This document shows, one piece after another, positions 12,297 through 23,644 of a DNA stretch of 62,050 nucleotides; positions within the stretch are counted from its first letter, which is position 1, and each line of letters starts with the position of its first letter. The DNA comes from Natronolimnohabitans innermongolicus JCM 12255. GTDB taxonomy: Archaea; Halobacteriota; Halobacteria; Halobacteriales; Natrialbaceae. The notes under the pieces are model-generated. The model was not told the DNA's origin, made no database searches, and was given only the letters and a program-made list of their open reading frames with translations. The position numbers and the translations under genes were made by a program. The stretch spans positions 1-62,050 of the forward strand of contig NZ_AOHZ01000009.1 in the NCBI RefSeq assembly GCF_000337215.1, given 5' to 3'.

Positions 12297-14996
12297 ATGA
12301 CGTCTGGGGAACGCGAGCCGTCCGCTGATGCTATCGCGCCTGATCCGACTATCTATCAGGTGCCAGTAAAAGCGTCGGCCGACGAGCCGATTCGATCGAA
12401 CTTCGAACGGACCGTCATCGACGGCGTTCGACGGGACCGACTTGAGGAGGTCTGCGAGGTTCCGGTCGAGCACGAGACGCTTCGAGTGTGGGGAAACACC
12501 GAGTCGGAGGCCGCCGAGACGGGAGAGTATCTGCTGTTCGCGGATCGCGACGGCCGCCGCGGCGGCGACTACACGCTGCTCGCTCGCATCGCTCACGCGA
12601 CGGTTCTGGATCCGGAGACCGCAGCCGCGTTCACCCAGACGATCGGATGGAGTGACGACCCCGACGACGCGTACCCGCACGTGATGTTTCTCGATCCGAT
12701 CTACGAGGCCCGACTCGACCGCGAAGCGTTCTGGGACACGCTCGGATTCAAGGGCTGGCCGAACGACACGTTTAGCGCCATTAACTTCGACCGCCGCGGG
12801 TCGACGTTCGTTACGGCGTACGACTCGATTCCGGAGTTTATCGAGGAGATCCGCGGCGAGAAAATCTACCCGAACGAGTCGAGTGAGGCGGACGGCCGAT
12901 CCGAGCCGGCCGACGACTATCAGACCCTCGAGGCCGCGATCACCGACGTTCGAGCCCGACTCGCGGCCGCCTCGAGAGATCCGGCGTGGCTCGAGCGTCG
13001 CCTCGGGAAAGTGCTCGTCGCCGAGTGGTCGCGGGCTCTCGAGGGGTTCGAACCATCCGGGACCGTCCCGGCGAGCACCGCCGCGACGTTCGACCAGCTT
13101 CGAGACGTCTACGAATCGCTCGAGCCCAAACTCGAAGAGATCGCCGCCGAGATCGGCGTGGGATCGCACGGCTCGTTCTCACCGACGGAAGTGCTCTTTC
13201 TGTGCTGGGTCCGACTCGTTCAGGCGGAGATCGGCGACGTTGGCGCGCCGTTGAGCCAGCCGCGACTGAACAGCATCCTCCGCGAAACGTACTCGATCGA
13301 GGGCGAAACGGACGGCGACCCGAGCCCCCATTCGCCGGACGTCATCCACCCGGTGCGCTCTCACATCCGAGAGACGGATCCGACCGTTTACGCCTTCGGT
13401 GCAACGCCTACCGACTGGCTCACGACACTCGAGTACGGTTCGGTGCCGTTCGACGAAGCACACCGTGATCGGTGGACGGCTCTCGAGGAGGGCGACGTTG
13501 CCGTGCTCCACACGCGAACGAACGACGAACGCCACGACCCGGCCTCGGCCGACGTTCTCGGTGTCGGCGTTCTCGGACAGACGTTCGAGAAAGACGAACC
13601 GTGGCGGCTGGACGAGCACGCAGGGGACGCGTCGTATCCCCTGGTTGCAACCCTCGACCGACTGTTTCTCTTGGGATCGATCGACGACGTCGATACGTCG
13701 CAACCGCTTCCCGAAAAGACGCCGGCGAAATACGAGGCGGAGATCGGGGCGCTGACCTCGGACACCCTCTCGGTCGAGGACGCGAACCGGATCTGTGCGG
13801 CGGCCGGCGAGACCGCGTTTCCGACCGAGTCGGTGTGCGCGCCGTTCCGATCTGACGACGGAAGCGTCGACCACGACGGGGCGATCGCGCTCGTCGGGGC
13901 GATGGCTGATTCGCTAACCGAAGCGTCGACGGTCAACGTCCACGAGTCCTATCAGGGGTCGATTCCCGCTGCGACGCTCGAGGGGCTGTACTTCCCCGAC
14001 GATCAGGGCGAACGCATCCTCGAGCAGATCGAGACGGCTCTCAGAACGGGAAAGCACGTTCTCCTGACGGGGCCGCCCGGAACCGGAAAGACGGAGATCG
14101 CGCGCCGAATCTGCGAACGGCTCGCGGCCGACTATCCGTACCTGTACTCGGGCTACGAGACGACGACGGCGACGGCCGACTGGTCGACGTTCGATACCGT
14201 CGGCGGCTACATGCCTAACGAATCGGCCGAGGATGGCGGTGACGAGCTCGCGTTCACGCCCGGAATCGTCCTCAATCGGCTCAAAGATTCGCAGACGGGG
14301 ACCCAGTCGAACGAACTGCTCGTCATCGACGAACTGAATCGCGCCGACATCGACAAGGCGTTCGGCCAGCTCTTTACGCTTCTCTCCGGACAGTCCGTTC
14401 AGCTTCCCTACAGCAAGAACGGACGCGAGGTCGAGCTCGCGACGACGGGCGACGTGACTGGACGGCCCGCAGACCACCAGTATCTCGTCCCCGACTCGTG
14501 GCGGATCTTCGCGACGATGAACACCTACGACAAGACGTCGCTCTACGAGATGAGCTACGCGTTCATGCGGCGCTTCGCGTTCGTTCGCGTGCCGGCGCCC
14601 GAGCTTCCGGAAGGGCAGACCGAGGACGCGGAGATCCGACTCGAGGAACTCGTCCACGAGTACGCGGACGCGTGGGGGCTCGACATCGACCGCGACGTGG
14701 CGATGGCCGTCGGTCGCGTCTGGCGGAAGACGAACCACGCCGTCGACGAGCGGGCGATCGGCCCGGCGATCATCGAGGATCTCCTCCGCTACGTGACCCA
14801 CCACCCCGAGTCGGACCTCGAGTACCACCTCACGCAGGCAGTTATCAGCTACGTGTTCCCACAACTCGAGGGCGTTCCGAAGCGCCGGACGATCGTCCGC
14901 GAGATCGCGGCTGTCGACGCCGTCGACTCGACGCTGCTCGAGCGAGCCGCGGCCGAGATGCTGCAGGTGACGCCGGCCGAGAGCGAGACGGTATGA
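12297..14996 (+). CDS. McrB-like AAA+ GTPase fused to EVE/PUA-like domains (modification-dependent restriction)
   Basis: 899 residues. Residues about 15-180 look like an EVE/PUA-type reader: EYLLFADRDGRRGGDYTLLARI, then PHVMFLDPIY and FDRRG. A helical region about 195-300 follows. A second EVE-like block lies at about 355-455 (VYAFGATPTDWL, ALEEGDVAVLH, VLGVGVLGQTF). The motor is at 560-860, with Walker A GPPGTGKTEIAR (about 592), Walker B LLVIDELNRADIDKAFGQL (about 673) and the McrB-type ATMNTYDKTSLYEM (about 741). EVE domains bind modified cytosines in DNA and McrB uses GTP to drive translocation, so this should recognise foreign modified DNA. It is coupled to the nuclease subunit by an ATGA overlap. 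The EVE assignment is by pattern and less certain than the motor. Confidence 0.85.
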   Translation: MTSGEREPSADAIAPDPTIYQVPVKASADEPIRSNFERTVIDGVRRDRLEEVCEVPVEHETLRVWGNTESEAAETGEYLLFADRDGRRGGDYTLLARIAHATVLDPETAAAFTQTIGWSDDPDDAYPHVMFLDPIYEARLDREAFWDTLGFKGWPNDTFSAINFDRRGSTFVTAYDSIPEFIEEIRGEKIYPNESSEADGRSEPADDYQTLEAAITDVRARLAAASRDPAWLERRLGKVLVAEWSRALEGFEPSGTVPASTAATFDQLRDVYESLEPKLEEIAAEIGVGSHGSFSPTEVLFLCWVRLVQAEIGDVGAPLSQPRLNSILRETYSIEGETDGDPSPHSPDVIHPVRSHIRETDPTVYAFGATPTDWLTTLEYGSVPFDEAHRDRWTALEEGDVAVLHTRTNDERHDPASADVLGVGVLGQTFEKDEPWRLDEHAGDASYPLVATLDRLFLLGSIDDVDTSQPLPEKTPAKYEAEIGALTSDTLSVEDANRICAAAGETAFPTESVCAPFRSDDGSVDHDGAIALVGAMADSLTEASTVNVHESYQGSIPAATLEGLYFPDDQGERILEQIETALRTGKHVLLTGPPGTGKTEIARRICERLAADYPYLYSGYETTTATADWSTFDTVGGYMPNESAEDGGDELAFTPGIVLNRLKDSQTGTQSNELLVIDELNRADIDKAFGQLFTLLSGQSVQLPYSKNGREVELATTGDVTGRPADHQYLVPDSWRIFATMNTYDKTSLYEMSYAFMRRFAFVRVPAPELPEGQTEDAEIRLEELVHEYADAWGLDIDRDVAMAVGRVWRKTNHAVDERAIGPAIIEDLLRYVTHHPESDLEYHLTQAVISYVFPQLEGVPKRRTIVREIAAVDAVDSTLLERAAAEMLQVTPAESETV

Positions 14997-16339
14997 ACAG
15001 GGACGAACTGCTCGAGCAGGTGACCGAGGATATCCTCGCGCACGTGATGAACGGCTCGTTCCCCGAACGCGAACTCGCCCAGTCGATCAAACCCGAACAA
15101 CTGGACGAGCGCTTCGAGGAGTACGAACTGCTGCTCGATCTGCACTTCGTGCTCAAATCCGACGTGGTCGACTTCGTCCGCGACCTCTCGGTGCACCTGC
15201 GAAGCCTCCGGACCGAAACCAGAACGACGTCGCGGACGCGACGCGGCGCGGTCGACGGCCGAATCGACTGGAACGAGACGATCAAGAAGCGGTATTCCGA
15301 GCACCCCCGCGACAGATCGATCTTCGTCTGCGACGATCGGACGGTCGAGTACGACATCCCGGAGAACATCGTTCTCAAGCGATTGATTTCGGTCATCCAC
15401 ACGGCGATCCGGGAGGCAGAGGAGTACCTCCGCGGCCACTACGACTGGGTTCGCGAGACGTGGAAGGGCAACGAGGATCTGATCGACGAACTCCAGCGGA
15501 TCGTCGAACGGAACGTTCACGTCCGTCGAATTCGCGACCCCGACACCTACGAACCGACCGAACGGATGCTCACGACCGCCGCCAGCTCTCGCCACGCGGT
15601 CTATCGGGAGGCCGCGTCGCTGCTGCGAACTCGAGAGCGACTGTTCGACGGCGATGCGGACGCGATCCGAACTCTCCTCGAGGAAACGGCGATCGCCCCC
15701 GACGATCAGGACTCGCTGTTCGAACTGTTCGTCCTCTTTCGGTTCGTCGCGACCCTCGAGCGAATGCGCGAGATGCAGCCGCAGTACAAGACAATCGCGA
15801 CGGGGAGACAGGAGGTGGCCCGATTCGAGGACGAGAAAGAGATCGTCCTCTACCACGATACCTCCGCGCGTGATCGTGATCTGTCGTTCGTCGCCGTCCC
15901 CGACGAGGACGCAGACTATCACTCGCGAACGGACAAAGTCCAACTCGAGGCCCAGGAGATCGCGGGCGACTACTTCGGCCGGGAGTTCACCAATCACACT
16001 GGTCGGCCGGACGTCATCGTTCTCGAGGTCGTCTCCGAGGCTGACACCCAACGCGAGTACCTGATCACGGAGGTCAAGAACAGCACTAACGTGGACACGA
16101 TCCGCCGCGGGATCAAGGAGACGCTGGAGTACCTCGCGTTTCTGCGGGTCAACGAGGAGTACGTCTTCGGCCCCGACGAGGACGACTACTTCGGTTCGGG
16201 CTGGAACGGCCTGCTGGTGACGCAGGATCTCGAAGACGAGACCGCCTCGCTCGAGGAGCAAACCGACAACCCGGTGACGATCCTGCAGGCGTCGGAACTC
16301 GAACGGGACCTCGAGCGGATATTGAGCGAGATTCTGTAG
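14993..16339 (+). CDS. McrC-like nuclease subunit
   Basis: 448 residues, translationally coupled to the McrB-like gene. The first about 300 residues are helical and highly charged, as in McrC adaptor regions. The C-terminal third carries a PD-(D/E)xK nuclease: GRPDVIVLEV (Asp about 341) and YLITEVKNS (E-x-K about 359-361), then LVTQDLEDE and a terminal helix ELERDLERILSEIL. With McrB it should cut DNA after GTP-driven assembly. No inner frameshift is visible. A MITE lies 38 bp after its stop. Confidence 0.85.
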   Translation: MNRDELLEQVTEDILAHVMNGSFPERELAQSIKPEQLDERFEEYELLLDLHFVLKSDVVDFVRDLSVHLRSLRTETRTTSRTRRGAVDGRIDWNETIKKRYSEHPRDRSIFVCDDRTVEYDIPENIVLKRLISVIHTAIREAEEYLRGHYDWVRETWKGNEDLIDELQRIVERNVHVRRIRDPDTYEPTERMLTTAASSRHAVYREAASLLRTRERLFDGDADAIRTLLEETAIAPDDQDSLFELFVLFRFVATLERMREMQPQYKTIATGRQEVARFEDEKEIVLYHDTSARDRDLSFVAVPDEDADYHSRTDKVQLEAQEIAGDYFGREFTNHTGRPDVIVLEVVSEADTQREYLITEVKNSTNVDTIRRGIKETLEYLAFLRVNEEYVFGPDEDDYFGSGWNGLLVTQDLEDETASLEEQTDNPVTILQASELERDLERILSEIL

Positions 16340-16377
16340 GCATTCTGCTTCCTCCCTCGACCGGGATATTCAACCTA

Positions 16378-16457
16378 TAGTAGCCACTGAAACGATTTAC
16401 ACACTGATCGCAACGCTGTACTGCGATCAGGTGTGCAGTGACTTTCAGTGGCTACTA
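16378..16457 (-). mobile_element. MITE copy C, between the McrC gene and the next gene
   Basis: 80 bp with perfect 15-bp inverted ends (TAGTAGCCACTGAAA) and TA on each side (16376-16377, 16458-16459). The interior is the reverse complement of copies A and B, so this copy lies in the opposite orientation. Including the TA flanks the inverted repeats extend to 18 bp. Ends as intact as these suggest a recent arrival. Confidence 0.9.
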
Positions 16458-16519
16458 TAGCATCACTGATCTCAACACCTATCACTCACCGGCGACAACA
16501 CGTCACCAGAGCGAGAAGA

Positions 16520-17083
16520 ATGGTTTCTAACGCACAAATTGGCGAACTCATCGTCGGCGCGTATCACAAGATCATCACCGACGCTGAAGTCGTGAGCTAC
16601 AACTCGAGATCCAAACGAGACGGCGCCCAGATGGAGATTGACGTCGTCGCAATCGACTCGAGCGACGGCACGCAGACCGTCTACGCCTGCGAGGTCATCA
16701 CCCACCTCAACGGCTCGGCGTACTCGGGGACCCCCGAGACCGACAAGTGGGACGATTACGGCAACGACAGCTACCAGTTCTCCCTCGAGAAACTCGAGTC
16801 CAAGTTCCGATCCGACTACGACTACGTCTCGAGAGTGTTCGACGACGCCGACGAGTACGTCCTTCAGCTCTGGGCGCCATCTCTCTCGGACGGCCATCTC
16901 ACGGACGGGCTCGCCCAACTCTCGAGCGAGTTCGAGGCCGAGTACGGACTCCCGATCGAACGCGTCGTCAACGAGACCTACACGGCCCGCGTCGAGGAAC
17001 TCCGGTCGCTCGCAGCCGAGGAGACGAAAGCGTACGGTGAGCCCGCGTTTCGGTTCCTGCAAATCCTCGAACAGTTGCGATAA
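16520..17083 (+). CDS. Small PD-(D/E)xK-like protein next to McrBC
   Basis: 187 residues from ATG 16520; an upstream in-frame ATG at 16448 would start inside the MITE and was rejected. The region MEIDVVAID...TVYACEVITHL (about 37-63) has the beta-hairpin order of a PD-(D/E)xK nuclease core (acidic residue, then E-V-x), but Ile/Thr occupy the place of the catalytic Lys. The rest is helical, with YVLQLWAPSLSDGHLTDGL and a C-terminal helix. It may be a third subunit of the defence locus, now separated by the MITE, or an independent nuclease-like protein. No close family is recognised. Confidence 0.65.
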   Translation: MVSNAQIGELIVGAYHKIITDAEVVSYNSRSKRDGAQMEIDVVAIDSSDGTQTVYACEVITHLNGSAYSGTPETDKWDDYGNDSYQFSLEKLESKFRSDYDYVSRVFDDADEYVLQLWAPSLSDGHLTDGLAQLSSEFEAEYGLPIERVVNETYTARVEELRSLAAEETKAYGEPAFRFLQILEQLR

Positions 17084-17320: not shown

Positions 17321-17533
17321 ATGGGCGACAAAACGATTCGCGTCTCCGAACGAACGTGGCGAAAGCTCCGAGCGCGCAAACGGGGGTCCGAGAGCTTTGA
17401 CGACGTCATCGAGCGCGAACTCGAGGATGACGAGCCACTCGCCGGATTCGGCGCGTGGAGCGAGACGGAGATCGACGAGGCCGTCGACGACGTAAAACGG
17501 GAACTGGACGACGATTTCGACGCCGGTCCATGA
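17321..17533 (+). CDS. vapB: VapB-family antitoxin
   Basis: 70 residues. The N-terminal KTIRVSERTWRKLRARKRGSE is the ribbon-helix and dimerisation pattern of haloarchaeal VapB proteins. The C-terminal half is acidic (ERELEDDEPL, DDVKRELDDD) and would mask the PIN active site. The ATG at 17321 follows the palindrome directly, whereas the longer frame upstream has no domain sense. It is coupled to vapC by an ATGA overlap. Confidence 0.85.
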   Translation: MGDKTIRVSERTWRKLRARKRGSESFDDVIERELEDDEPLAGFGAWSETEIDEAVDDVKRELDDDFDAGP

Positions 17534-17919
17534 AGGTTCTCGACAGCAGTTTCTGCGCCGACTTTCTCCGCGGCCGTGATCACGCCAAGCAGTACCGACT
17601 CGCCCATCGAAACGAGAGTTTTGCCCTCTCGGAGATCGGCTTTTACGAGTTGTATCACGGCGCCGTGAAAGTCGGTCGCGATCCCGTCGCCGTCGACCGA
17701 GATCTGCCGTGGGTGGACCGTCTCGACTACACGCCGGCTCACAGCCGTGAGAGCGCACGGATCCGCGCCGAGTTAGCGGAACAGGGACAACGCATTCAAC
17801 ACCCCGACATGATGATCGCTGGCGTTGCACGGTCGCTCGACGCACCGCTCGTCACCTCGGATACCGACGTCGATTGTATCGACGACCTTACCGTCGAGAA
17901 CCCCCACAAAATGTACTGA
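17530..17919 (+). CDS. vapC: VapC-family PIN-domain toxin
   Basis: 129 residues with the PIN nuclease layout: MKVLDSSFCADFLRG (first Asp about 5), LSEIGFYELYHGA (Glu about 45), QHPDMMIAGVARS (Asp about 94) and PLVTSDTDVDCI (Asp about 112). VapC toxins cleave tRNA or rRNA when the antitoxin is lost. It ends close to the methylaspartate cluster on the other strand. It marks the right edge of the accessory island. Confidence 0.9.
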   Translation: MKVLDSSFCADFLRGRDHAKQYRLAHRNESFALSEIGFYELYHGAVKVGRDPVAVDRDLPWVDRLDYTPAHSRESARIRAELAEQGQRIQHPDMMIAGVARSLDAPLVTSDTDVDCIDDLTVENPHKMY

Positions 17920-18102: not shown

Positions 18103-19281
18103 TTAGTCGTCGGCCGTCGTCTCCGCTTCGGCCTGCTCGCCCAGAATCTCCTCGCGGTGTTCGTCGAGCAGCGGCGCCCGCCCGCGGGGCTGGGGCGTCG
18201 TCTCGCTCATCTTGATCGGGTTACCCGCGATCTCGACCTCGCGGTCCGCACCGGGCTGTTCGACGGGCACGAGCATGTCCCGGGCGTGGACGTGGTCGTC
18301 AGCGAAGATTTCCTCGGTGGTCTGGACCTTGGCGGCCGGGACGCGGCCCTCGAGTTTGCCCACCAGTTCCTCGTTGGTCTGTTCGACGGTCCAGTCGGCG
18401 ATCTCCTCGCGGAGCGTCTCGCGGTGCTCGAGGCGCTCGGGGGTCGTGGGATACTCCTCGGCGAGATCCTCGCGGCCCATCACGTCGCAGAGTTCGGCCC
18501 AGTGGTTGTTGTTGAACGCGGCGATGACGGCGTAGCCGTCGTCGGTCTCGAAGGCGTTGTAGGGAAACAGCGTGGGGTGGGAGTTCCCCCGACGGGACGG
18601 GGCCTCGCCGGTGTAGGACTGCTGGTAGATGGCGCGTTCGGTGAAGCTGATCATCGAGTCGTACATGCCGGTGTCGACGTACTGACCCTCGCCGGTCTGT
18701 TCGCGGTGGTTGACGGCGGCCAGGATCCCGATACAGTTCAGCGTCGCGGTAAAGAGGTCGCCGACGCCGGGGCCGGTCTTCGTCGGCGGGCCGTCGGACT
18801 GGCCGGTGGTCTCCATGACGCCGCCAAGCGCCTGTGCGATGAGGTCGAAAGAGGGTTGCCCCTGGCGTTCGGTTTCACCCGTACGCGGGTCGCCGAAGCC
18901 GCGGATCGAGGAGTAGATGAGATCCTCGTTGTACTCCGTGAGCGTCTCGTAGCCCAGATCGTATTTCTCCATCGTGCCCGCGCGGTAGTTCTCGACGACG
19001 ATGTCGGCTTCCTCGACGAGCGAGAGGAAGTCCGCGCGGTCGTCCTCGTCACCGAGGTTCAGCTCGATGCTCTTCTTGCCCCGGTTGACGCTCTGGAAGT
19101 AGCCGCCGTAGGCCTCTTCCTCGGGGTCGTCGACGAACGGCGGGTTCGATCGGATCATGTCGCCGCCCGGCCGTTCGATTTTGACGACGTCCGCGCCCAT
19201 GTCCGCGAGCAACATCGTACAGTACGGCCCAGCCAGCACCTGGGTCAGATCGAGCACACGCAGGTTCGAAAGCGCTCCCAT
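18103..19281 (-). CDS. mct: Family III CoA transferase, probably succinyl-CoA:mesaconate CoA-transferase
   Basis: 392 residues of the CaiB/BaiF family: LRVLDLTQVLAGPYCTMLLADMGADVVKIERPGGD, NRGKKSIELNL, ADIVVENYRAGTMEKYDLGY and a likely nucleophilic Asp in GVGDLFTATLNCIG. Family III enzymes move CoA between organic acids through an aspartyl-CoA intermediate. The placement, divergent from glutamate mutase and next to mesaconyl-CoA hydratase, indicates that it activates mesaconate with succinyl-CoA in the methylaspartate cycle. The exact substrate rests on context. Confidence 0.85.
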   Translation of the reverse strand: MGALSNLRVLDLTQVLAGPYCTMLLADMGADVVKIERPGGDMIRSNPPFVDDPEEEAYGGYFQSVNRGKKSIELNLGDEDDRADFLSLVEEADIVVENYRAGTMEKYDLGYETLTEYNEDLIYSSIRGFGDPRTGETERQGQPSFDLIAQALGGVMETTGQSDGPPTKTGPGVGDLFTATLNCIGILAAVNHREQTGEGQYVDTGMYDSMISFTERAIYQQSYTGEAPSRRGNSHPTLFPYNAFETDDGYAVIAAFNNNHWAELCDVMGREDLAEEYPTTPERLEHRETLREEIADWTVEQTNEELVGKLEGRVPAAKVQTTEEIFADDHVHARDMLVPVEQPGADREVEIAGNPIKMSETTPQPRGRAPLLDEHREEILGEQAEAETTADD

Positions 19282-19361
19282 GTACGCCGTAGTTTTTCAG
19301 GGCAGTGCCAAAACCCTTACCATCGATCATGTACATTGTCACACCATCCCATAGGGACGCT

Positions 19362-19409
19362 CTTAGGATCCTTAAGGAGTATTATCATGGAAGATCATTA
19401 GGTTTATAG
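19362..19409 (+). promoter_or_regulatory. Divergent control region: near-palindrome plus TATA box
   Basis: CTTAGGATCCTTAAG (19362-19376) is an inverted repeat centred on GGATCC with one extra base. A TATA-like TTTATAG follows at 19403-19409. The TATA lies about 30 nt before the ATG at 19436, favouring that start for the mutase S subunit and a leaderless mRNA. The palindrome sits between the divergent mct and glmS promoters and could switch both. Confidence 0.5.
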
Positions 19410-19435
19410 GGTGGTTCCTCATGGTTCTCAATACG

Positions 19436-19876
19436 ATGTCCCAAACGGTCGTCCTCGGCGTGATTGGCTCCGACGCCCACGTCGTTGGAATCACAATCCT
19501 AGAGCAGGCCTTCAGCGCAGCGGGCTTCGACGTCATCAACCTCGGCGTGCAAACGTCACAGGAAGAGTTCGCCGAATCCGCCGTAGAACACGACGCTGAG
19601 GCCGTACTGGTTTCTTCGCTCTACGGCCACGCCGAGCAAGACTGTCAGGGATTCCACGAGGTCCTCGCGGAGGCAGACGTCGAGGCAGTCACCTACATCG
19701 GTGGCAACCTCGCGGTCGGGCAAGACGACTTCGAGCAGACCCGACGGACGTTCCGGGAGCTCGGCTTCGATCGGGTGTTCGACTCCGAGACCGATCCCGA
19801 AGACGCGATCGAAGCGCTGCGAGAGGACCTGCAGATCAAACCGACCGAGTCGGAACGTGCGACTATCAGTTCCTAG
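19436..19876 (+). CDS. glmS: Glutamate (methylaspartate) mutase, small B12-binding subunit S
   Basis: 146 residues. The cobalamin-binding signature D13-x-H15-x-x-G18 (GSDAHVVG) is present, with the later VSSLYGHAE and YIGGNLAVG loops of the Rossmann-like B12 fold. Together with subunit E it rearranges glutamate to threo-3-methylaspartate with adenosylcobalamin. The ATG at 19436 was chosen over 19421 because of the TATA spacing. Its stop directly touches the E subunit start, so the two are coupled. This S subunit is unrelated to glucosamine-phosphate synthase, which shares the symbol. Confidence 0.95.
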   Translation: MSQTVVLGVIGSDAHVVGITILEQAFSAAGFDVINLGVQTSQEEFAESAVEHDAEAVLVSSLYGHAEQDCQGFHEVLAEADVEAVTYIGGNLAVGQDDFEQTRRTFRELGFDRVFDSETDPEDAIEALREDLQIKPTESERATISS

Positions 19877-21316
19877 ATGATACGAGACGAACGTATTCCA
19901 TCCGACGAGCTACGGCGTATCGACGAGGAGATTCGCTCGAACTGGCCGACGGGCGCAGACGTCGACTTCGAGGACGCTATCGAGTACCACGAATCGCTGC
20001 CCGACCACAAGCGATTCGCGGACGTCCTCGAGTCGGCCGACAAGCCCCTCCTCCAGCCCCGGGCCGGCGTGCCCCGGCTGGACGACCAGATCGAGCTCCT
20101 GCAGTATCTCCACGAGGAGGGCCAGGCCGATCTCCTGCCGACCACGATCGACTCCTACACGCGTGACAACGAGTACGAGAAGGCCCAGCAGGGCCTCGAG
20201 AAAGCCCGCGAGACGGGCGACGACACGCTGAACGGCTTTCCCGCCGTCAACCACGGCGTCGACGGCTGCCGGGAGCTGATCGACGAGGTCGACGCCCCCA
20301 TCGAAGTTCGCCACGGCACGCCCGACGCCCGGCTGCTGGCGGCGATTACCTTCGCCGGCGGCTTCCAGAGCTTCGAGGGCGGCCCGATCTCCTACAACAT
20401 CCCCTACACGAAACGCCACGGGCTCGAGGAGACCATCGAGCGCTGGCAGTTCGTCGACCGACTGGCGGGGGCCTACACCGAACGCGGCATCCGCATCAAC
20501 CGCGAGCCGTTCGGGCCGCTTACCGGCACCCTGGTGCCGCCGTCGATCGCCATCGCGATCATGCTGGTCGAGGGGAAACTCGCGGCCACGCAGGGCGTGC
20601 GGTCGATCACGCTCGGCTACGGGCAGGTCGGCAACGTCGTGCAAGACGTCGCCGCCCTGAACGCCCTCAAAAAGCTCGGCAACGAGTACCTCCCTGACGA
20701 GGTCGTCGTCACCACTGTCTTCCACGAGTGGATGGGCGGCTTCCCGCCGGACGAGGCGCGGGCCAACGGCGTGATCAGCTTCGGCGGCATGACCGCCGCA
20801 ATCGCCCAGCCCGATAAGGTCATCACGAAGTCCCCACAGGAGTTCCAGGGGGTTCCGACCAAGGAGGCCAACGCCTCCGGCCTGCGCACCACCCGCCAGG
20901 TCATCGACATGGCGATCGAGCAGCAGATCGACATCGACGGCATCGAGGAGGAACAGGACTTGATCGAGCGCGAGACGCGGTGTCTGATGGACACCATCTT
21001 CGAACACGGCGACGGCGACGTCGTCCAGGGGACGCTCAAGGCGTTCGACTCCGGCGCGCTCGACGTTCCCTTCGCCCCCAGTGACAGCGCGAAGGGTGCC
21101 GTCCTCCCCGCTCGAGACGACGACGGTCGCGTCCGCATCTTCGAGTGGGCCGACCTCGAGATGGACGACGACATCAAGGAGATCCACAAGGCCCGGCTGT
21201 CCCAGCGGGCGGACACCGAGGGCCGCGAACAGTCGTTCCGCATGGTCGCGGACGACGTCGACGCGATCAGCGACGGGAAACTCATCGGCCGACCACAGGG
21301 TGAGGTCAAGCTATGA
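19877..21316 (+). CDS. glmE: Methylaspartate mutase, catalytic subunit E
   Basis: 479 residues, the usual length for the TIM-barrel subunit that forms the radical active site with the B12 subunit. Recognisable stretches are LLQPRAGVPRLDDQIELLQY, GFPAVNHGVDGCRELID, EVRHGTPDARLLAAITFAGG, FEGGPISYNIPYTKR, SITLGYGQVGNVVQDVAAL, and FHEWMGGFPPDEARANGVIS. It begins immediately after glmS and overlaps the lyase gene by ATGA, so stoichiometric expression is expected. Confidence 0.95.
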   Translation: MIRDERIPSDELRRIDEEIRSNWPTGADVDFEDAIEYHESLPDHKRFADVLESADKPLLQPRAGVPRLDDQIELLQYLHEEGQADLLPTTIDSYTRDNEYEKAQQGLEKARETGDDTLNGFPAVNHGVDGCRELIDEVDAPIEVRHGTPDARLLAAITFAGGFQSFEGGPISYNIPYTKRHGLEETIERWQFVDRLAGAYTERGIRINREPFGPLTGTLVPPSIAIAIMLVEGKLAATQGVRSITLGYGQVGNVVQDVAALNALKKLGNEYLPDEVVVTTVFHEWMGGFPPDEARANGVISFGGMTAAIAQPDKVITKSPQEFQGVPTKEANASGLRTTRQVIDMAIEQQIDIDGIEEEQDLIERETRCLMDTIFEHGDGDVVQGTLKAFDSGALDVPFAPSDSAKGAVLPARDDDGRVRIFEWADLEMDDDIKEIHKARLSQRADTEGREQSFRMVADDVDAISDGKLIGRPQGEVKL

Positions 21317-22587
21317 ATATTACAGGTGTGTACGCAACGCCCGGATTCTCCGGGTTCTTCTTCGACGACCAGCGCGCGATCAAGCAGGGTGCAACGCAGG
21401 ACGGCTTCACGTACGACGGCGAGCCCGTCACCGACGGCTTCGACGAGATTCGCCAGGCCGGCGAGACGATCATCGTCGACATCGAACTCGCGGACGGCAC
21501 CGTCGTTCGCGGCGACTGCGCCGCCGTTCAGTACTCCGGCGCCGGCGGGCGCGACCCGCTGTTCAAAGCCGAGGCGTACGCTCCCGTCATCGAGGGCCCC
21601 GTCGCCGACGAACTCGAGGGACGGGACGCCACCGAGTTCCTCGATAACGCCGAGTTGCTCGAGGAGATGCAGGTCGACGGCGACCGCCTGCACACGGCGA
21701 TCCGTTACGGCGTCTCGCAGGCCCTGCTCGCCGCAGCCGCCGAAGCCGAAAACACCACGCGCACGGACGTCATGGCCGACGCGATGGGCACCGAGCCCGC
21801 AACGGAGCCGGTGCCGGTCTTCGGTCAGTCCGGCGACGACCGCTACAACAACACCGAGAAGATGTTCGTCAAGGGCGTTCCCGTCCTCCCCCACGCGCTG
21901 ATCAACAGCGTCGAGAAGATCGGCGAGAACGGTGAAACGCTCCTCGAGTACGTCGAGTGGCTTACGGAGCGATCCCAGGAACTGGGGCCCGACGGCTACG
22001 ACCCTCGGTTCCACATCGACGTCTACGGCATGATCGGCGAGGTCTTCGGTGCGCCCTACGACCGCGACGAGGTCGTCGACTACTTCGCCGCCCTCGAGGA
22101 GGCGGCCGCGCCGTACCCGATCCAGATCGAGGGGCCGATGGACGTCGGCGACCGCGCTGACCAGATCGAGGCGATGGTCGAGCTCCGCGACGGGCTCAAC
22201 GCGGCCGGCGTCGACGTCGACATCGTCGCCGACGAGTGGTGTAACACCTTCGAGGACGTCCAGGCATTCGTCGACGCCGGGGCGGCCGACCTCGTGCAGA
22301 TCAAGACGCCCGATCTGGGCGGGATTCACCGCAGCGCGCAGGCGGTCCGCTACTGCGAGGGGACCGAAACCCGCGCCTATCTGGGCGGGACTTGCAACGA
22401 GACGGAGACGTCCGCCCGCGCTTGCGCCCACGTCGCGCTCGCGACCAACGCGGCGCAAGTGCTTGCAAAGCCCGGGATGGGCTTCGACGAGGGCTACATG
22501 ATCGTCGAAAACGAGATGCGACGGACCATCGCCCGACGGAACCGCGAGCAGACCACCGAGACCGACGAAATTACCGCAGATGACTGA
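21313..22587 (+). CDS. mal: Methylaspartate ammonia-lyase
   Basis: 424 residues, enolase superfamily. It removes ammonia from 3-methylaspartate to give mesaconate. Visible family stretches are the N-terminal GVYATPGFSGFFFDDQRAIK, a metal-site ligand candidate in HIDVYG, the following QIEGPMD and DIVADEW segments, DLVQIKTPDLGGI with the likely catalytic Lys, and GGTCNETETSARACAHVALA. Start and stop overlap both neighbours (ATGA upstream, 8 bp downstream), placing it in one operon with glmS, glmE and mch. Confidence 0.95.
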   Translation: MNITGVYATPGFSGFFFDDQRAIKQGATQDGFTYDGEPVTDGFDEIRQAGETIIVDIELADGTVVRGDCAAVQYSGAGGRDPLFKAEAYAPVIEGPVADELEGRDATEFLDNAELLEEMQVDGDRLHTAIRYGVSQALLAAAAEAENTTRTDVMADAMGTEPATEPVPVFGQSGDDRYNNTEKMFVKGVPVLPHALINSVEKIGENGETLLEYVEWLTERSQELGPDGYDPRFHIDVYGMIGEVFGAPYDRDEVVDYFAALEEAAAPYPIQIEGPMDVGDRADQIEAMVELRDGLNAAGVDVDIVADEWCNTFEDVQAFVDAGAADLVQIKTPDLGGIHRSAQAVRYCEGTETRAYLGGTCNETETSARACAHVALATNAAQVLAKPGMGFDEGYMIVENEMRRTIARRNREQTTETDEITADD

Positions 22588-23644
22588 TTGGACAGATCCC
22601 GATACGTTCGCACAGGCGCTCGAACAGGTCGAAACCAAAGAGAAGGGCAACTGCTTCGAGGACTTCGAGGAGGGAGACCTCATCGAGCACGACCCCGGGC
22701 TCACCCTCACCCAGTTCGGCAACGAACAGTGGATGAGCCAGACGCTCAACCACGACCCCGCCTACTGGCGGGCCGACGCCGCTGCGGAACGCGGCTTCGA
22801 GGAACCGCCGGTGCACCCGGACTACCTCACCGCCGCGACGCTCGGTATCACCGTCGAAGACCTCAGTGAGAAGGGTGGCTACTTCCTCGGCCGGACCGAC
22901 GTTCGGTTCCCTGGCACGCCCGTCTACACGGGCACCGAACTCCACGTCGAGAGCGAGGTCGTCAACACGGCCACCTCGAGTTCCCGACCGGAGTACGGCA
23001 TCGTCTCCTGGCGCACCCGCGGCAAGGACGCCGAAACTGGCGACGTCCTCTGTTCGTACGAGCGCACGAACATGATCCCGCGCCGAGAGCCCGTTGCGAC
23101 CGACGGGAGCGGGGCTGCGGCCGCCGAAGCGGAAGACGCCGAGCCGGAATTCCCCGAGGAGTTTATCGCGCCCGAAGGCGGCTACTTCGAGGACTTCGCC
23201 GAGGCGCTCGAGGACGCCGACGACGAGAACGCGGCGGTCGCCTACCGCCACGAGCGCGGCCGCACGCAGGACGACGTCACCGTCGCCCAGTTGCCGCTGT
23301 CGACGCTGAACACGGCCAAACAGCACCACAACGTCGACGTGATGAGTGACTCCCCGTCGGGCGACATCGTCACCTACGGCGACGTCACTCGCTCGACCGC
23401 GCTGGGACACGCCCGCTCGGACGAGCGGACCTGGCGCGAGGTCGGCTTCGACGACGAATCGTTCCACACGTTCGTCGCCGTCGGCGACACCGTCTACGCG
23501 TTCACGCGCGTGATCGAAGCCGAGGAGACAGCCTCGAGCGACGAGGCTGGTACCGTCACCTTCCAGCACATCGCGTTCAACCAGGACGACGAACCCGTCT
23601 ACTCCGGGACGCGAACGGCGGAAATTCGAAAGCGTTCTAACTAA
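22580..23644 (+). CDS. mch: Mesaconyl-CoA hydratase (double hot-dog)
   Basis: 354 residues, two MaoC-like hot-dog halves (about 20-165 and 205-350) joined by an acidic Ala/Glu linker (AAAAEAEDAEPEFPEEF). The enzyme hydrates mesaconyl-CoA to beta-methylmalyl-CoA. First half: GDLIEHDPGLTLTQFGNEQW and PPVHPDYLTAATLG. Second half: GDIVTYGDVTRSTALGHARS. It starts inside the last codons of mal. A gap of about 75 bp then leads to the lyase gene. Confidence 0.9.
   Translation: MTDWTDPDTFAQALEQVETKEKGNCFEDFEEGDLIEHDPGLTLTQFGNEQWMSQTLNHDPAYWRADAAAERGFEEPPVHPDYLTAATLGITVEDLSEKGGYFLGRTDVRFPGTPVYTGTELHVESEVVNTATSSSRPEYGIVSWRTRGKDAETGDVLCSYERTNMIPRREPVATDGSGAAAAEAEDAEPEFPEEFIAPEGGYFEDFAEALEDADDENAAVAYRHERGRTQDDVTVAQLPLSTLNTAKQHHNVDVMSDSPSGDIVTYGDVTRSTALGHARSDERTWREVGFDDESFHTFVAVGDTVYAFTRVIEAEETASSDEAGTVTFQHIAFNQDDEPVYSGTRTAEIRKRSN

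Follow-up and report, generated by a model that had tools for sequence, protein, structure and literature searches.

A haloarchaeal McrBC-like operon with two reader-like blocks before its motor, and a 187-residue neighbour at a shared defence site

The locus described here is very probably a two-gene Type IV (McrBC-like), modification-dependent restriction operon, and the adjoining gene for a 187-residue protein (the 187-aa gene) stands outside the system. The operon lies in a 62,050-nucleotide stretch of DNA from Natronolimnohabitans innermongolicus JCM 12255, the whole of which is referred to as the window (Table 1); among named organisms, the nearest matches come from Natrialbaceae such as Natrinema. 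The direct basis for this reading consists of the gene order together with the 4-bp overlap of mcrB and mcrC, the intact motor and nuclease motifs, the kinship of one block, block A, to a solved archaeal McrB reader, and the near-perfect linkage of McrB to McrC. The original prediction had combined a McrBC defence operon, its McrB bearing two reader-like blocks, with a third component in a new layout; the operon and its blocks are retained here, whereas the third component and the new layout are not.

A defence function of the mcrBC operon is presumed. In such a system, McrB would oligomerise via its GTP-driven AAA+ motor, block A, and probably also block B, would bind modified bases of incoming DNA, and the motor would then switch on the McrC nuclease, by which the DNA would be cut. 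The cutting step is modelled on characterised McrBC systems, and the modified base that is read may be 6mA-like.

Table 1. Features of the operon and its surroundings (window coordinates)
Feature	Position	Strand	Basis or remarks
mcrB-like gene, 899 aa	12297..14996	+	ATG at 12297; block A, helical linker, block B, AAA+ GTPase motor
Block A, aa 15-195, EVE/YTH-like reader	12339..12881	+	Profile against TgMcrB N-domain; AF2 strand order
Helical linker, aa 205-340	12909..13316	+	AF2 helices 211-329
Block B, aa 351-464, probable second PUA/EVE-superfamily domain	13347..13688	+	AF2 and Foldseek
AAA+ GTPase motor, aa 561-790	13977..14666	+	Walker A GPPGTGKT 592, VIDELNR Asp678, MNTYDKT 741
mcrC-like gene, 448 aa	14993..16339	+	PD-(D/E)xK residues D340, E360, K362
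84-bp palindromic dispersed repeat	16376..16459	.	Between mcrC and the 187-aa gene
187-aa PD-(D/E)xK-like protein gene	16520..17083	+	ExK lysine missing
VapB (PF02697) and VapC (PIN, PF01850) toxin-antitoxin pair	17322-17919		Pfam
CoA-transferase family III gene, then gene cluster	18103-23644		Fixed flank of defence site

McrB carries all three motor elements, namely Walker A, Walker B and a signature of the NxxD type, which is the usual one in McrB proteins (PMC7680126, PMC11090510); in the window the signature reads MNTYDKT, with DKT replacing DRS. The protein matches AAA_5 and also the PRK11331 McrB model, the latter under its curated cut-off, and residues 561-774 match the McrB structures of E. 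coli and Thermococcus.

The McrC of the window obtained no family match of its own in Pfam and other family searches, and the matches of its homologues are sub-threshold only, one to PF10117 (McrBC, E=0.022) and one to DUF2357 (E=0.053). For this reason, the identity of McrC is based mainly on linkage and, in addition, on length and motif. Of the 56 McrC places found in 194 genomes, 55 have a McrB match no more than 1 kb away, and in the remaining place it is 1.5 kb off. In the motif, RPD(340)...E(360)VK(362), the PD-(D/E)xK nuclease residues D340, E360 and K362 are invariant in 16 homologues with identities down to 24%.

Two EVE/PUA-like blocks had been predicted before the motor, with profile searches of residues 15-180 and 355-455 against EVE/PUA as the proposed check. 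The positions found are nearly those predicted, and the two blocks fared differently: block A could be linked to the N-terminal domain of Thermococcus gammatolerans McrB (TgMcrB), whereas block B gave no significant match and is supported at the level of fold. For block A, the profile matches the TgMcrB domain in PDB 6p0f/6p0g (E=1e-4) and 6ut5 (E=9e-4) over 68 profile positions, which establishes sequence kinship to a solved EVE/YTH reader. The TgMcrB domain has a YTH fold and targets 6mA DNA (PMC7680126). When all block A members were scanned with Pfam EVE, the cut-off was not reached, and a single sub-threshold match was obtained.

Sequence comparison did not relate block B to EVE/PUA. Its profile gives nothing significant against EVE/PUA, YTH-like sets or block A, a Pfam EVE scan of all block B members gives zero matches, and hhalign comparisons of A with B, and of each with locally built EVE and YTH-like sets, give nothing convincing; the segment with the GD motif aligns weakly to 6p0f (E=1.5). 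The evidence on fold comes from an AlphaFold model of McrB residues 1-570 built from 16 sequences, in which block B has a pLDDT of about 80-92 over residues 361-460, except for a dip to 64 at 411-420. The order of strands and helices runs parallel in A and B and is PUA-like in B. According to our reading of the DSSP output, the paired elements are 19-24/364-369, 34-39/371-380, 61-67/382-385, 78-83/401-406 (the GD/GE turn), 92-103/419-431, 106-116/438-442 and 128-140/449-458. A Foldseek search with the same model has PH1033/MJECL36 as its top three PDB matches (E 4e-4 to 8e-4, prob 1.00), the only ones below 0.001, followed by YTH and ASCH. Since the query holds both blocks, the output does not tell A from B, and the alignment lengths suggest that the matches cover both. 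PH1033 and MJECL36 are EVE-type proteins. Judged from the model, block B is probably a reader of the PUA/EVE type.

The original prediction also regarded two reader blocks as unusual, which turned out otherwise among the haloarchaeal proteins examined. We scanned 40 haloarchaeal McrB proteins, a non-random set picked by similarity to the window McrB, with locally built module profiles. The combination of A and B is present in 16 of the 40, the window included (one of these matches is weak), and a YTH-like module together with EVE in another arrangement of stacked readers in 8 of the 40; tandem EVE domains before one motor occur in two proteins (L152 and L155). Two stacked reader-like modules are thus ordinary for the haloarchaeal McrB proteins of this set. 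Additional modules in other relatives include MrcB_N, winged-helix and MTaX1, along with one sub-threshold SRA match, and the helical linker is missing from some relatives (L133, L136). A clade of haloarchaeal McrBC systems with swappable readers stacked before one motor makes specificity testable by module exchange.

Several individual loci deserve mention here. In L152:369-4049 and L155:2871-6308, several PUA/EVE-like modules, the tandem EVE included, are stacked ahead of one motor, and in the former (genome G206) two matches above the Pfam EVE cut-off lie within one frame. In L211:5345-7950, the McrB of G495 is matched in two overlapping frames, which fits a frameshift.

The window operon shares with the McrBC of Thermococcus gammatolerans (PDB 6p0f, 6ut5) its archaeal origin, an EVE/YTH-like first domain, to which block A corresponds, an AAA+ GTPase motor and a separate McrC gene. 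However, the window McrB has an extra helical linker and block B before the motor, and the window McrC is too diverged for Pfam. With the EVE-McrB class of Type IV systems (Bell et al. 2020, PMC7641849), it shares an EVE-superfamily domain fused to a McrB-like motor and an adjoining McrC, although neither window block passes the Pfam EVE cut-off. Proteins of this class often carry additional domains (Bell et al. 2020, PMC7641849), and the fusion classes given in a figure legend have EVE in either of two positions, not in both (PMC7641849). Among the papers covered by a text search, none on two EVE domains together with McrB was found. The McrBC of Escherichia coli K-12 has the same two-gene layout and the same motor and nuclease motifs, but its McrB reads methylcytosine via DUF3578/MrcB_N, a domain that only some of the window relatives possess (L132, L136).

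The protein encoded by the 187-aa gene does have the predicted PD-(D/E)xK outline without the lysine, and the motif reads E39-x-D41...E58-V-I-T-H, with Ile at the expected Lys. It thus retains E39, D41 and E58 of a D...ExK catalytic motif and lacks the lysine. The lysine position of ExK is occupied by I, V, T or A in 26 of 26 aligned members, and because the lysine is missing throughout, its loss is a trait of the family rather than a sequence error. In an alignment of 17 members, the invariant positions include G8-E9, Y27, Q37, E39, D41, C57-E58-V59, T61-H62 and K95; from the sequence, K95 could be a migrated catalytic lysine, or the protein may be inactive as a nuclease. UPF0102/YraN, NERD and other small PD-(D/E)xK proteins have the same leading helix with a conserved Glu, the same E-x-D strand and a strand that the CEVxTH strand of the family resembles (ExK), but they differ from the family at the lysine, and no significant family match connects them to it. 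Family and profile searches with the 187-aa protein gave no family or PDB match; a profile match to UDP-galactopyranose mutase in the PDB (E=0.03) was judged to be chance. A single-sequence AF2 model has a pLDDT of 43.5, too poor for reading the fold, and no relatives were found in the viral contigs searched.

Synteny of the 187-aa gene in other genomes had been named as a check on the new three-component layout with its two nuclease folds, and it contradicts that layout. Among 194 genomes of the class, the 187-aa family is present in 27 and McrC in 58; of the 29 places where the family occurs, one, the window itself, has McrC nearby, and outside the window the family is never near McrBC. Both are present in 3 of the 194 genomes against 8.1 expected (hypergeometric P(<=3)=0.015, a statistic that ignores phylogeny). 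Within the Natrialbaceae (125 genomes searched), 17 genomes have the 187-aa gene and 43 have McrC of the clade. Three share the two (G000, G470 and G495), and linkage is confined to G000, the window genome; in G470 and G495 a single contig carries both genes at a distance of about 1 Mb. In the other genome available from the genus of the window, the 187-aa gene is present (65%) and McrC of the clade is missing. No 187-aa gene is nearby in any of 20 fetched McrBC loci or of 19 loci from an independent genome scan.

At the chromosomal site in the window, a DUF5785 gene and the CoA-transferase gene flank mcrBC, the 187-aa gene and a VapBC pair. The cluster behind the CoA-transferase gene has the appearance of methylaspartate-pathway genes. 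In nine genomes (L123-L127, L209-L212), mcrBC is next to the same CoA-transferase gene and the 187-aa gene is absent; in two of these (L124, L126), the convergent CoA-transferase gene follows about 85 bp after mcrC. Two named records (L169, L170) apparently represent strains already counted among the nine. Conversely, in two genomes the site holds the 187-aa gene and lacks mcrBC: in G105 (L103) the gene is accompanied by a Type IIG gene at the same CoA-transferase gene, and in G471 (L202) the space from DUF5785 to CoA-transferase contains it alongside the remnant of a Type IIG gene. Because each occurs there without the other, the presence of mcrBC at this hot spot varies independently of that of the 187-aa gene. 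More generally, mcrBC, the Type IIG gene, VapBC and the 187-aa gene exchange independently at this site, which thereby documents different restriction genes replacing each other. Because the crude gene caller sometimes errs on strand (mcrC was called minus), Pfam, PADLOC or tblastn was used to check the neighbouring genes named in this account. The 187-aa homologue next to the short Type IIG remnant in G471 (L202:5558-6543) is interrupted by one in-frame TGA, which suggests decay.

The 187-aa gene is accordingly an independent resident of a shared defence hot spot and not a McrBC component. A three-component system, in which the 187-aa protein would join McrBC as a second nuclease subunit or as a non-catalytic one, is suggested by the short distance (the gene begins 180 bp downstream of mcrC on the same strand) and by the PD-(D/E)xK outline, but the linkage and genome-sharing counts given above, the presence of mcrBC at the same site without the 187-aa gene in all other genomes examined, and the palindromic repeat between mcrC and the 187-aa gene make it highly improbable. 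Adjacency in one genome is not enough to name a third McrBC subunit. Another explanation is that the partners of the 187-aa gene are other restriction systems (GmrSD, Type IIG) and that its placement by mcrBC is an accident of the defence island. Within the class sample, its four nearest relatives lie by Type IIG genes (L103, L104), by an HNH gene followed by GmrSD (L105), or share a 4-bp overlap with GmrSD (L106), and the pair of GmrSD and a 187-aa-family gene recurs in a second family (L204), the GmrSD proteins being 84% identical. Many more distant relatives, however, sit among housekeeping genes, and on balance we consider this explanation plausible, though somewhat short of an even chance; the link to GmrSD and Type IIG is a lead. 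In L106:5992-8678 and L204:6001-8678, which come from two different families, a GmrSD-type gene is followed by a 187-aa-family gene.

As for block B, it may instead be a structural adaptor that stays constant and connects swappable reader modules to the motor, in which case it would not be a reader and the rest of the McrBC interpretation would be unchanged. Its position argues for this: it directly precedes the motor in 22 of 22 McrB proteins of the clade while the modules upstream of it vary (A, MrcB_N+A, a winged helix plus a possible SRA-like part plus A, MTaX1, and others). Nevertheless, among close relatives block B is less conserved than block A (identities of about 48-58%, against 55-76% for block A in the five closest relatives), which is not suggestive of a passive adaptor, its strand order is PUA-like in the AF2 model, and in other McrB proteins of haloarchaea the corresponding place is taken by genuine EVE domains. 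We therefore regard the adaptor as a real possibility that is open to doubt, and retain block B as a probable reader. A more far-reaching proposal is that McrB has two different modified-base readers in series (A being conserved and B fast-changing), which together check the DNA before the motor is set off, and that members of the 187-aa family roam as lysine-less PD-(D/E)xK partners of unrelated restriction enzymes (Type IIG, GmrSD). Taken together, these two parts appear unlikely.

The gap between mcrC and the 187-aa gene holds a perfect 17-bp inverted repeat and one copy of an 84-bp palindromic repeat (TATAGTAGCCACTGAAA...). A further window copy lies at 112-194, and the genome has 37 copies. 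This repeat is MITE- or REP-like, a neighbouring insertion and no part of McrBC. It is present in 19 of 41 genomes searched, all of the same family, at times in adjacent pairs, and it folds far better than shuffled sequences (z=-8.7).
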